Of a stretch of 64,000 nucleotides of DNA, positions 5,111 to 22,676 are shown in pieces (positions within the stretch are counted from its first letter, which is position 1; each line of letters begins with the position of its first letter). This stretch comes from Gaiellales bacterium (lineage in GTDB: Bacteria > Actinomycetota > Thermoleophilia > Gaiellales > JAICJC01). The notes under the pieces are model-generated. The model had not been told where the DNA came from, did not search any database, and saw only the letters and a list, made by a program, of their open reading frames with translations. Where the stretch lies: assembly GCA_036403155.1 (NCBI GenBank), contig DASWRM010000037.1, positions 124,001 through 188,000 on the forward strand, written 5' to 3'. The position numbers were made by a program, and so were the translations under genes.

Positions 5111-6346
5111 TCAGGCGGAGGCGCCGGCCGTCGCCAGCGCTGCGTCGACCTCGTCCGGGTCGGGTGCGACCGAGATCGTCTCGACCGACGGCTCGACGGC
5201 ATCGATCGTCTTCAACCCGTCACCGGTGATGTAGAGGACGACCGTCTCGCCGGCGCCGATCTCGCCACGCTCGGCGAGGCGCGCAAGCACCGCCGTCGTG
5301 ACCCCGCCCGCCGTCTCCGTGAAGATGCCGGTCGTGCGGGCCAGCAGGCGGATGCCCTCGACGATCTCGTCGTCCGGTACCGCCTCGATCGACCCGCCGG
5401 TGCGCCGCGCGACGTCGAGCGCGTAGACGCCGTCCGCGGGGCTGCCGATCGCCAGCGACTTCGCGATGCCGGTCGGCTTGACGGGGATCACCTCGTCGGC
5501 ACCGGCGGCGAAGGCGGTCGCGACAGGCGCGCATCCCGCCCCCTGCGACCCGTGCATGGCGGGCGCGGGGCCCGCAGGGAGCAGCCCGGCGGCGCGTCCC
5601 TCCTCGAACCCCTGCAGGATCTTCGTGTAGAGCGATCCGGATGCGATCGGCGCGACGACCCTGTCGGGCACGCGCCAGCCGAGCTGCTCCGCCGTCTCCA
5701 GGGCGATGGTCTTCGACCCCTCCGCGTAGTACGCGCGCATGTTCACGTTGACGAACGCCCAGGGCCGGTCATAGCTGAGCTCGGAGCAGAGGCGGTTCAC
5801 GTCGTCGTACGTGCCGTCGACGGCGAACACGGTGGCGCCGTACGCCGCCGCGGCGATGATCTTCTCCCGCTCGAGGTCACCCGGCACGAAGATGTACGTC
5901 GGCAGGCCGAGCGCCGCTCCCGCCGCGGCCGTGGCGCCGGCCAGGTTGCCCGTCGAGGCACAGGCGAGCGCCTCGAACCCGAGTTCGACCGACTTCGCGG
6001 CCGCGACGGCCACGACCCGGTCCTTGAACGAGTGCGTGGGGTTCGACGTCTCGGTCTTGACGTACAGCCGGCACGAAAGCCCCAGCTCGGCGGCCAGGCG
6101 ATCGGCAGGGATCAGCGGCGAGTTGCCAACGGGCAGACCGCGTGCCGGCGTGTCGACCGGCAGGAAGGCGGACCAGCGCCAGAGCGTCGCGGGGCCCTCG
6201 GCGATCTGCTCGCGCGTGACTCCGGCCGCGATGGCGGCGCGGTCGTAGGCCGCCTCGAGCGGGCCGAAGCAGCGGTCGCAGGCGAAACGCGCGTCGAGCG
6301 GGTGCTCGGCCCCACAGCCCTTACAGACCAGATGCGTTGCGTACAT
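5111..6346 (-). CDS. thrC: Threonine synthase
   Basis: 411 residues from ATG 6346. It converts O-phospho-L-homoserine to threonine using PLP. An N-terminal zinc-ribbon-like segment has Cys8, Cys11, Cys23 and Cys26 (CKGC and CDRC). The fold-type-II PLP core follows: NPTHSFKDR with PLP-binding Lys108, the phosphate loop ASTGNLAGATAA, and IFVPGDLEREK. The overall arrangement is that of the plant/archaeal-like class of bacterial ThrC. Its mRNA carries a SAM-I riboswitch, so threonine synthesis from the aspartate-family branch point is tied to the methionine/SAM pool. It is convergent with the debranching enzyme and divergent from a small membrane protein gene. No homoserine kinase or dehydrogenase is visible here. 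Confidence 0.97.
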   Translation of the reverse strand: MYATHLVCKGCGAEHPLDARFACDRCFGPLEAAYDRAAIAAGVTREQIAEGPATLWRWSAFLPVDTPARGLPVGNSPLIPADRLAAELGLSCRLYVKTETSNPTHSFKDRVVAVAAAKSVELGFEALACASTGNLAGATAAAGAALGLPTYIFVPGDLEREKIIAAAAYGATVFAVDGTYDDVNRLCSELSYDRPWAFVNVNMRAYYAEGSKTIALETAEQLGWRVPDRVVAPIASGSLYTKILQGFEEGRAAGLLPAGPAPAMHGSQGAGCAPVATAFAAGADEVIPVKPTGIAKSLAIGSPADGVYALDVARRTGGSIEAVPDDEIVEGIRLLARTTGIFTETAGGVTTAVLARLAERGEIGAGETVVLYITGDGLKTIDAVEPSVETISVAPDPDEVDAALATAGASA

Positions 6347-19342: not shown

Positions 19343-20475
19343 GCACCGTCGCGGTCGTCGGAGCCGCCGGCATCATCGGCCCGGCCATCGTCGCGACCCT
19401 GGCGGAGCACGAGGCGGTCGAGGAGATCCGCTGCCTCGACATGAACGCCGAGGGAGCCCGCGCCGTGGCCGCGCAGCACGGTGGCGGGAAGGCGACCGGC
19501 GCGGCACTCGACATCACGGACATCGAGGCGGCCGGGCAGGCGATCTCCGGCTCCGCCGTGCTCCTGAACACCGCCGCCTACCGGGTCAACCTCGCGGCGA
19601 TGGAGGTCGCGCTCGCAGCGGGAGCGCACTACCTCGACCTGGGCGGCCTCTACCACGTGACCCGCGAGCAGGTGAAGCTCGACCTCCGCTTCCGGGAGGC
19701 CGGGCTGGTCGCCGTGCTCGGCATGGGCTCGACCCCCGGCAAGACCAACGTCATGGCTGCGCACGCGGTGTCGCGGCTGGGCGGTCGCATCGACCGGATC
19801 GTCGTGGCGGCCGCCGGACGCGACCCCAGCCCGCCCGCCGGCCCGCTGGTCGCCCCGTATGCGGTCGAGACGATCCTCGACGAGCTCTCCATGCCGACGC
19901 CGCTGATCCGCGACGGCGCTCCGGTGCTCCTCCCTCCGCTCACCGAGGCGGGCACGGTGGAGTTCGGTGAGCCGGTCGGCCCGGCGCCGACGATCTACAC
20001 GATCCACTCCGAGCAGGCGACCTTCGCCGACAGCTTCGGCGCGAGCGACGTCAGCTTCCAGCTGTCGCTGAACCCGCTGTTCCTCGACAAGATCCGGCTG
20101 CTGACGGATATCGGCCTGGCTGGGACCGACCCCGTGGACGTGCGGGGCGTGCCCGTCGTTCCCCGGCACGTGCTGCTCGCGCTGATCGCCCGGCTGCCGA
20201 AGGCGTCGCCGTCGCGGGAGGCGTTCGGCATCCACCGAGTCGAGGTCTACGGCGAGAACGGCACGGCCGTTACGGAGTGCATCACGCGATCGGTCGACCG
20301 GATGGCGTTCGGGGGTGGCGTGCTCTCGACGGCCTGCCCCCCGGCCGTGGTGGCGGACATGATCTGCCGCGGCGAGATCGAGCGCCGGGGCGTCTTTCCC
20401 TCGGAGCAGATCGTGCCCTTCCACGCGCTGTTCGATCGCCTCGAGCGGTACGGCGTGTCGGTGCGGGACGCGTAG
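19339..20475 (+). CDS. Saccharopine-dehydrogenase-like NAD(P)-dependent oxidoreductase
   Basis: 378 residues from GTG 19339, overlapping the PucR stop in GTGA. The N-terminus is a Rossmann fold (TVAVVGAAGIIGPAIVATLA) with the LDMNAEGA acidic residue after strand 2. Then come the saccharopine-dehydrogenase signatures LLNTAAYRVNLAAMEVALAA, GAHYLDLGGLYH and GLVAVLGMGSTPGKTNVMAA. The C-terminal half is the alpha/beta substrate domain. Family members include saccharopine dehydrogenases and carboxy(nor)spermidine dehydrogenases, which act on secondary-amine adducts of amines with keto acids or aldehydes. In this polyamine setting a role in forming or cleaving such an adduct is plausible but unproven. 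A strong hairpin follows. Confidence 0.8.
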   Translation: MSTVAVVGAAGIIGPAIVATLAEHEAVEEIRCLDMNAEGARAVAAQHGGGKATGAALDITDIEAAGQAISGSAVLLNTAAYRVNLAAMEVALAAGAHYLDLGGLYHVTREQVKLDLRFREAGLVAVLGMGSTPGKTNVMAAHAVSRLGGRIDRIVVAAAGRDPSPPAGPLVAPYAVETILDELSMPTPLIRDGAPVLLPPLTEAGTVEFGEPVGPAPTIYTIHSEQATFADSFGASDVSFQLSLNPLFLDKIRLLTDIGLAGTDPVDVRGVPVVPRHVLLALIARLPKASPSREAFGIHRVEVYGENGTAVTECITRSVDRMAFGGGVLSTACPPAVVADMICRGEIERRGVFPSEQIVPFHALFDRLERYGVSVRDA

Positions 20476-20525
20476 CCCCACGAGGGCTGAGGCCAGACCC
20501 TCCGTCGAGACGGGGTCAAGCCTCA

Positions 20526-20569
20526 GGCTGACCCGGGTTGCGGCGCGACGCACGCAACCGGGGTCAGGC
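20526..20569. terminator. Long hairpin between convergent genes
   Basis: 17-base arms GGCTGACCCGGGTTGCG / CGCAACCGGGGTCAGGC with two mismatched pairs and a 10-base loop, between the saccharopine-dehydrogenase-like gene and the convergent AT-hook gene. The preceding 45 bases contain related fragments (GGGTCAAGCC, CTCAGGCTGACCC), so it may derive from a dispersed repeat. Confidence 0.7.
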
Positions 20570-20591
20570 TGAAGCCAGGCCCTGAGACATG

Positions 20592-20987
20592 TCAGTCGAG
20601 CAGCTTCTTGACGCCGTCGAGCTTCTTGCGCAGCTCGGCAACCTCGCCGGCCTGCGTCTTCATCGCGTCGGCCAGTGCCTGGACGTTCTGCACGAGCGCC
20701 GTCGCGAGCCTGTCGATGTCGCCACCGCCGCCCGAGCGCGCTCGGCCACGCCGGGGGCTCGACGCGGCGGCCGGCCGCCGGGCCGGGCGGCCACGGGTCT
20801 TGCGGGGGCGCAGCGTGCCGCCCGCTCGCTTGCGGGCCACCCTGTAGTAGTTCGCGGCAACCGTACCCGCACGGCGGCCGGAGTCGGCGGAGATCTTTGC
20901 GAAGGCCTCGGTTCGGTTCATACCGTCCGCAACGAGCTTCTCGACCTGGTCGAAGATCTGTTCACCGATCTCACCTGAGCGCGGCAT
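20592..20987 (-). CDS. Small AT-hook DNA-binding protein with C-terminal coiled coil
   Basis: 131 residues from ATG 20987, preceded by GAGGTGAG. Three parts are visible. Residues 1-55 form a compact helical domain that resembles a helix-turn-helix (IFDQVEKLVADGMNRTEAF, RRAGTVAANYYRVARKRAGG). Residues ~56-88 are a very basic linker with an AT-hook core RGRP (KTRGRPARRP) and a second RRGRARSGG patch. Residues ~90-131 are a heptad-like helix (LATALVQNVQALADAMKTQA, EVAELRKKLDGVKKLLD). The layout suggests a chromatin-like or bridging DNA-binding protein. I do not recognise a named family. It is downstream of pgi on the same strand, separated by a 35-bp inverted repeat. Confidence 0.7.
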   Translation of the reverse strand: MPRSGEIGEQIFDQVEKLVADGMNRTEAFAKISADSGRRAGTVAANYYRVARKRAGGTLRPRKTRGRPARRPAAASSPRRGRARSGGGGDIDRLATALVQNVQALADAMKTQAGEVAELRKKLDGVKKLLD

Positions 20988-21021
20988 ATCTCACCTCACT
21001 ATCCGGGATGGGGGAGCGAGA

Positions 21022-21056
21022 CTGTAGCGCAAACCTATATGACAATGCGCTTACAG
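21022..21056. promoter_or_regulatory. Inverted repeat between pgi and the AT-hook gene
   Basis: Arms CTGTAGCGCA (21022-21031) and TGCGCTTACAG (21046-21056), complementary except for one bulged base, around an AT-rich 14-base centre. It covers the pgi stop codon and lies 35 bases before the AT-hook start, so it could be the pgi terminator or an operator for the AT-hook gene. Confidence 0.45.
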
Positions 21057-22676
21057 CGAACCGCGTCTATAGAGACGAATCAGCGCGTTCGTCGAAGCAT
21101 CGTGTGTCAAATCCGGCTCGTCATCGCTTGCAATTTCGGAAGCTATGCGTTTCGCAAGCACCTTGCCCAGTTCCACGCCCCACTGGTCGAAGGAGTTGAT
21201 ATCCCAGATGACACCTTGCGTGAACACGGTGTGTTCGTATAGCGCAACGAGGTTCCCGAGCACCGCGGGGGTCAGGCGCTCCGCGATGATGGTGCTGCTG
21301 GGCCGGTTCCCCTCGAACACCCTGTGCGGGACAAGGCGATCGTCGGTTCCTTCAGCGCGCACCTCCTGCGCAGTCTTGCCGAAGGCGAGCGCCTCGGTCT
21401 GCGCGAACACGTTTGCCGTCAGCAGGTCGTGATGCGTGCCGAGCGGGTTGAGCGTGTGCAGGAAGCCGATGAAGTCGCACGGGATCAGCTTCGTGCCCTG
21501 GTGGATCAGCTGGTAAAAGGAGTGCTGGCCGTTCGTCCCCGGCTCGCCCCAGTAGACCGCGCCGGTCTGGTAGTCGACGGTCGCACCGGCCAGCGTGACG
21601 TGCTTGCCGTTGCTCTCCATCGTCAGCTGCTGGAGATACGCGGGAAAGCGCTTGAGGTACTGGTCGTAGGGCAGCACCGCCACCGTCTGCGCGTCGAAGA
21701 AGTCGCCGTACCACACCGCGAGCAGCCCCATCAGAACCGGCAGGTTCTGCCGGAACGGCGCGGTGCGGAAGTGGACGTCCATCTCGTGGAAGCCGTCGAG
21801 CAGCTCGCGATAACGGTCGGGGCCGATCGCGATTATCGTCGAGAGCCCGATCGCGGAGTCCATCGAATAGCGGCCGCCCACCCAGTCCCAGAACCCGAAC
21901 ATCGCCTCGGTGTCGATCCCGAACGCCCGCACCTCCTCCGTGGCGGTGGAGACGGCGACGAAGTGCCGTGCCACCGCGGCGTCGTCGTGCAGCGCCGCGA
22001 GCACCCACTCCCGGGCACTGGCGGCATTCGTCATGGTTTCCTGCGTGGTAAACGTCTTCGACGACACGATGAAGAGCGTCTCGGCGGGATCCAGATCACG
22101 CGTTGCCTCAACGAAATCGGTCCCGTCGACGTTCGATACAAATCGGACGGTCAGTGCGCGGTCGGAGTAGTGACGCAACGCCTCGTACGCCATGACCGGC
22201 CCGAGGTCCGATCCTCCAATGCCAATGTTGACGATGTTGCGTATCGGCCGCCCGGAGTATCCGCGCCACTCGCCGGAGCGGATCGCGGTCGCACATGCCG
22301 CCATCCGCCGGAGCACCTCGTGCACCTGCCTGACGACGTCCACGCCGTCCACCACGATCGACTCGTTGGCGGGCGCCCGCAGCGCGACGTGCAGAACCGA
22401 CCGGTTCTCGGTCGTGTTGATCGGCTCGCCGGTGAACATCGCCTCGATCCGCCCGGGCAGGTCGCGATCCTGCGCGAGATCCACCAGCAGTCGCAGCGTC
22501 TCCTCAGTGACGCGGTGCTTGGAGATGTCGAGCAGCAGCCCGGCGGCCCGCGCCGTCATCCGCTCCGCGCGTCCCCGATCGGATGCGAACAGCTCGCGAA
22601 GGTGCAGCGGCGCGACCTCGGCATGGTGCTGGTGCAGTGCCTTCCAGGGCGTGGTCTCGCGGAGGGGCGGCGCCAT
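21051..22676 (-). CDS. pgi: Glucose-6-phosphate isomerase
   Basis: 541 residues from ATG 22676, the usual length of the long bacterial form. It interconverts glucose-6-phosphate and fructose-6-phosphate in the cytoplasm. Signatures: [55 protein letters not shown] (PGI signature), [27 protein letters not shown] with catalytic Glu/His, and [16 protein letters not shown] with Lys. The start is supported by TAGGTT 8 bases upstream. Flanks are an AT-hook protein downstream and a TOPRIM protein upstream; no other glycolytic gene is linked. Confidence 0.97.

Follow-up and report, generated by a model that had tools for sequence, protein, structure and literature searches.

A small basic protein of Thermoleophilia with a predicted helix-turn-helix, an optional AT-hook and a coiled coil: a candidate broad regulator or nucleoid-associated protein

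The window, i.e. the entire 64-kb stretch of DNA analyzed here, carries a gene for a small basic protein in which a predicted N-terminal helix-turn-helix (HTH) domain is joined by an arginine-rich linker with an AT-hook to a predicted C-terminal coiled coil (Table 1). The protein represents a family that we did not find described anywhere in the literature and models examined, and that is seen in one class only, the Thermoleophilia, which are actinobacteria of soil and water. We propose that it is a dimeric DNA-binding protein which may serve as a broad regulator or nucleoid-associated protein, combining an HTH with an optional minor-groove hook and controlling its own gene. We consider the chances of this proposal to be evenly balanced.

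Table 1. Features of the locus, in coordinates of the window.
Feature	Position	Strand	Basis
131-aa gene (HTH, AT-hook linker, coiled coil)	20592..20987	-	ORF, orthologues, dN/dS 0.16
N-terminal three-helix HTH (predicted), residues 4-54	20826..20978	-	AlphaFold2, dN/dS 0.02, invariant residues
Disordered basic linker (predicted), residues 57-88	20724..20819	-	AlphaFold2 and net charge
AT-hook KTRGRPARRP, residues 63-72	20772..20801	-	sequence; hooks at the same site in relatives
C-terminal coiled-coil helix (predicted), residues 89-130	20598..20723	-	AlphaFold2 helix and heptads
Candidate Shine-Dalgarno sequence GAGGTGAG	20990..20997	-	sequence, directly 5' of the start
AT-rich upstream region, 53% GC (window 71% GC)	20988..21107	-	60-mer ranking
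30-nt inverted repeat, 80% complementary (may act as terminator for this gene and the convergent one)	20513..20582	.	just downstream of the gene

The reading frame runs on the minus strand from an ATG at 20987 to a stop codon at 20592-20594, and its 131 codons specify a protein with a predicted pI of 11.2. Judging by sequence comparison, it is a real gene and not a chance open reading frame, since it has a same-genus orthologue with 78% identity, and dN/dS against this orthologue is 0.16 for the whole protein and 0.02 for the HTH domain. A same-family orthologue is 65% identical. The mirror reading frame on the plus strand (20589-20978) is not the conserved one. In the source genome (3.2 Mb, 98% complete) the gene is single-copy, with one strong match and six more at E>0.05. 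Both here and in genome G001, it is flanked by a pgi-like and a saccharopine-dehydrogenase-like gene (names according to our reading of the translations), and the genomic context is preserved in the genus-mate. Neighbor genes vary from lineage to lineage, and no conserved regulated partner was seen among the neighbors of relatives, for which gene calls are crude. No Rfam element was found in 20400-21400.

The window protein matches no Pfam or NCBIfam model above cut-off, and its PHROG matches are at noise level. Likewise, no covering Pfam family was found for 26 members, and no covering NCBIfam or PHROG family for 39. The profile search for homologues suggested with the original prediction brings up orthologues across the Thermoleophilia: at least 72 of 299 genomes of the class carry the family, a lower bound because scoring was limited to 13 candidates per genome, and so do all five searched genomes of the source's own family (G000-G004). 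In a sample of the phylum, 14 of 396 genomes are positive, all of them within Thermoleophilia. Across 84,980 species genomes, 38 loci were detected, with record titles that read Thermoleophilia, Gaiellales, Miltoncostaeales or Miltoncostaeaceae, unspecified actinobacteria or bacterium, and, for four, Bifidobacterium breve. The latter (L077, L079, L081, L092) are MAG records with Thermoleophilia-like loci, and their titles are probably wrong. As far as titles and abstract openings go, the open-licence literature on AT-hooks, nucleoid proteins, Lsr2, Thermoleophilia and Miltoncostaea does not describe the family.

Some relatives depart from the common pattern. L104 is a plasmid-borne paralogue (Miltoncostaea oceani plasmid NZ_CP064357.1, 456351-456812), annotated as a hypothetical protein and located near an N-6 DNA methylase gene. 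Genome G159 (4.5 Mb, 3 contigs) has four family matches, one of them on contig 2 at the coordinates of L104. Nucleoid proteins are often plasmid-borne. In L028 (1-1959) and L027 (3-548), long lysine/alanine-rich repeats, which we take to be histone-H1-like, are fused in front of the same HTH domain.

The architecture of an HTH-like N-terminal domain, AT-hook and coiled coil, originally proposed from the window alone, is confirmed by the homologues and by the predicted structure, and the HTH, linker and coil each have the support of prediction and conservation. An AlphaFold2 model (39 sequences; mean pLDDT 77) contains helices at residues 4-20, 25-36, 40-54 and 89-130, and a disordered stretch with pLDDT<50 at residues 63-75 and 78-83. 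When the 55-residue HTH domain is folded alone, mean pLDDT rises to 94.1. Purifying selection is concentrated in this domain, with linker and coil much less conserved. Conservation peaks around helix 3 (GRRAGTVAANYYRVAR). In alignment A3, the invariant residues of the domain are A28, F29, T42, Y47, Y48 and A51. The linker has a net charge of +11 across 32 residues, in agreement with the basic surroundings initially ascribed to the hook. In the C-terminal helix, L, I, V or M occupy 83% of a/d positions (best of seven registers) versus 10% elsewhere. The proposed coiled coil is borne out as a single-chain helix with clean heptads, two features that would fit dimerization.

The predicted N-terminal fold is that of a tri-helical HTH. 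DNA-binding HTHs make up most of its best superpositions (IS3 OrfA, Mu transposase I-beta, response-regulator and sigma-4 domains, ArdK), and the best Foldseek row is an IS3-type OrfA HTH (TM 0.81 by query length). As all Foldseek matches to the PDB have E>0.5 and none is significant, we leave the type of HTH unassigned. VIA-align Z-scores are 7.4 for IS3 TnpE/OrfA, 6.6 for ArdK, about 6 for sigma region 4 and 5.1 for KorA, which is modest even at the top of the range and, by the tool's own note, may reflect just a common arrangement. Myb_DNA-bind_6 is matched by 4 of 26 family members (best E 9e-4), the window protein not among them. When solved structures were searched by sequence, the family profile gave nothing beyond coiled-coil noise and the window protein gave weak matches, and among viral predicted structures the best match (E 0.0047) pointed to no named relative.

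The AT-hook has an R-G-R-P core and lies inside the disordered linker. At the same site, the genus-mate has TRRGRPPGRK, and G003, of the same family, has lost the hook (RRRRAGARRA). Miltoncostaeales-like relatives also have such hooks in this linker (TRRGRPRGSGR, KRGPGRPAGSR and others), with RRGRP-type ones at the site of the window hook, as well as likely decayed ones (KRGPGQPVGS). Overall, [RKP]GRP is present in the linkers of 13 of 60 distinct members versus 1.2 expected from shuffled linkers, a comparison that does not translate into a probability because the members are related. The 60 are what is left of 114 ORF matches after removal of 7 without the locating motif and collapsing of the rest; with a looser locating motif there are 63 members and the hook count is still 13. 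For the window protein by itself, the motif arises in 7% of shuffles of its own linker, and it occurs twice in 16,383 aa of long codon-biased window ORFs, once in the window protein. We therefore regard the hook alone as weaker evidence than the conservation of the gene, and its recurrence across the family as exceeding what composition explains. On the family tree, hook gains and losses amount to at least 6 changes, 3 of them forced by well-supported branches, in a tree that rests on few alignment columns and has many open forks. From these sequences, the hook appears real, recurrent and optional, and not a family constant. As an observation on the side, L065 (1489-1998) has two AT-hook-like motifs, KRGPGRPGG before the HTH and TRRRGRPRGRRRG after it.

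Upstream of the start, the AT-rich region contains the joint AT-richest 60-mer of the entire window and extends into the 3' end of the pgi-like reading frame that lies upstream. The same tendency is seen in the relatives: the 120 bases that precede the start codon contain the AT-richest 60-mer of the locus (about 12 kb of surroundings) in 27 of 37, and lie within the lowest 5% in 35 of 37. This ranking covers 37 of the 38 loci (L103, with 18 bases upstream only, was left out), with the window ranked in its 64 kb and the others each in their own locus; the start of L081 was set at 5890 here and at 5944 in alignment A3. When HU promoters are given the same treatment, they rank lowest in 4 of 20 loci (Fisher p 1.5e-4). 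Counted by upstream group, a count compiled by hand, the figures are 13/21 versus 4/20 (p 0.007), and 19/21 versus 11/20 at the 5% level (p 0.012). The 20 HU loci come from 61 genomes searched, including genomes in which the family was not found. We prefer this control to a comparison with neighbor promoters (36 of 37 versus 7.3 expected), because the latter uses crude starts. Relatives without a hook have the AT-rich stretch equally, and so the stretch is no test of the hook. A plain strong promoter would be rich in AT as well.

A family-wide operator in these regions was rejected, since palindromes occur in 9 of 21 upstream regions versus 6.5 +/- 1.9 by shuffling, and no 7-mer is enriched, the best one in the 21 regions being within the null maximum. 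ATATGACAAT at 21037-21046 is the only match in the 64 kb (up to 1 mismatch) and resembles the upstream region of freshwater relatives, but it is absent from the genus-mate and we make no claim for it as a shared element. ACATGTGAGATA was dropped as well, with 4 of 122 loci, three of which (L013, L039, L091) are apparently one place. In one related group (L072, L076, L077, L097, L101), near-palindromes ACACATGT-n5-ACATGTGT were noted by eye near a TTGACA-like box, and for that group a local operator is possible.

In actinobacteria, the silencing of AT-rich foreign DNA usually falls to Lsr2. PMC6584129 describes Lsr2 as conserved throughout actinobacteria. However, the Lsr2 model (PF11774) finds no match in any of the 299 Thermoleophilia genomes, the source genome included, while it does match in the positive control, Corynebacterium glutamicum, and Lsr2_DNA-bd (PF23359) finds none in 61 genomes of relatives. 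HU is found in 60 of the 61. The window protein itself has no sequence match to the Lsr2 or H-NS family: neither PF11774 nor PF23359 nor any H-NS Pfam model is among its matches at E<=10, and its AlphaFold2 model has the HTH N-terminal and the coiled-coil helix C-terminal, the reverse of the H-NS-like plan of N-terminal oligomerization, linker and C-terminal DNA binding (PMC6936261). Because of the reversed order and the lack of sequence relation, we do not place it in either family.

Together, these data suggest a model in which two chains would pair via the C-terminal coiled coil, and the tri-helical HTH of each chain, whose fold is predicted, would bind the major groove. The arginine-rich flexible linker would lie along the DNA backbone, and the RGRP hook, where present, would reach into the minor groove of AT-rich DNA beside the HTH site. 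As the AT-rich upstream stretch is conserved, we infer that the protein probably regulates its own gene by binding the AT-rich promoter; as the genomic context changes between lineages, its action would be that of a broad regulator or nucleoid-associated protein and not of a single-operon repressor. The missing Lsr2 matches in the presence of HU, the AT-rich upstream regions, the changing neighbors and the DNA-compacting tails of some relatives all suggest a role beyond that of a local regulator.

A possible, if rather doubtful, alternative is an ordinary local or global transcription factor, in which an HTH dimer recognizes dyad operators, and linker and hook merely add affinity without any role in the nucleoid. 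A parallel coiled coil would place both HTHs at one end, as in dyad binding, and the nearest folds include the dimeric plasmid regulators KorA and ArdK. The much better conservation of the HTH compared with linker and coil, the dispensability of the hook within the family and the near-palindromes of the five-species group agree with such a factor too. However, an operator common to the family and a conserved regulated neighbor are precisely what the upstream and context comparisons did not bring up, and the strongly charged linker and the H1-like tails of relatives better fit binding of low specificity.

The original prediction, a DNA-bridging nucleoid protein, went further than a broad regulator and saw a xenogeneic-silencer-like role in which the AT-hook would mark AT-rich DNA. 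The idea is sensible, and the missing Lsr2 matches make it more pointed, but it is unproven. In its strict form, the protein would take the role of Lsr2 in Thermoleophilia, coating and bridging acquired DNA of high AT content as well as its own promoter, which we consider distinctly unlikely. The confinement of all positive genomes of the phylum sample to the class that lacks Lsr2 matches, the AT-rich upstream stretch, the plasmid-borne copy and the preference of GC-rich genomes for RGR-type hooks (PMC4466236) would fit silencing. But the family is too patchy in the class for a class-wide substitute of Lsr2, 47 of 60 members have no hook, and the domain order is opposite to that of H-NS and Lsr2. 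Moreover, because a parallel coil puts the HTHs together, bridging would need an antiparallel or higher-order assembly. The predicted role at AT-rich DNA has indirect support from the upstream regions, from the recurrence of hooks and from the lack of Lsr2 matches in the class, but since the hook is gained and lost within the family, it cannot be the core function. A related version, which we regard as unlikely, is that several Lsr2-less lineages of Thermoleophilia use the protein as a self-controlled silencer and architect of AT-rich DNA with a reversed plan, in which an HTH is followed by a swappable DNA-compacting linker (with an AT-hook, arginine-rich without one, or replaced by an H1-like tail) and then by a coil at the C-terminus, and that changes in genome GC and in the load of foreign DNA go along with repeated gain and loss of hooks.

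That the protein is an accessory of a mobile element or phage, as the IS3-type OrfA fold match and the plasmid copy might hint, is very improbable, given no match in 50,697 phage records, PHROG matches at noise, a location between chromosomal metabolic genes in a context preserved in the genus-mate, and purifying selection on the gene.

Thermoleophilia are a large, mostly uncultured class, and because Lsr2 is without a match in 299 of their genomes, how they handle AT-rich foreign DNA becomes a question. At least one copy of the family in the cultured Miltoncostaea oceani makes this question testable, and the family offers a natural series in which one HTH comes with a hook, a plain linker or an H1-like tail.

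Several known systems share parts of this plan. Lsr2 is likewise a small basic actinobacterial protein that inserts an RGR-type motif into the minor groove and has a dimerization module attached via a flexible basic linker, and, together with Bv3F, it provides a parallel for an RGR-type hook in GC-rich genomes (PMC4466236). In the window protein, however, the HTH comes first and the coil last, and the hook sits in the linker and is often lost in the family. H-NS, MvaT and Rok also have dimerization and DNA-binding modules parted by a linker, and a taste for AT-rich DNA would be expected in both cases, but their order is opposite (PMC6936261) and no sequence relation was found. KorA and ArdK, both small HTH regulators, can be superposed on the predicted domain (Z 5.1 to 6.6, 48 residues, rmsd 1.7-2.6), without a demonstrated sequence relation. 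To our knowledge, neither has an AT-hook or a comparable long coiled coil. Bacterial histone-H1-like proteins with lysine/alanine repeats resemble L027 and L028, whereas the window protein has no such tail. Finally, Myxococcus CarD and eukaryotic HMGA place AT-hooks within regulatory DNA-binding proteins, and HMG-I(Y) has an R-G-R-P hook (PMC4466236). CarD is described as having an RNA-polymerase-binding domain and HMGA as having no folded domain, whereas the window protein sets a single hook between an HTH and a coil.
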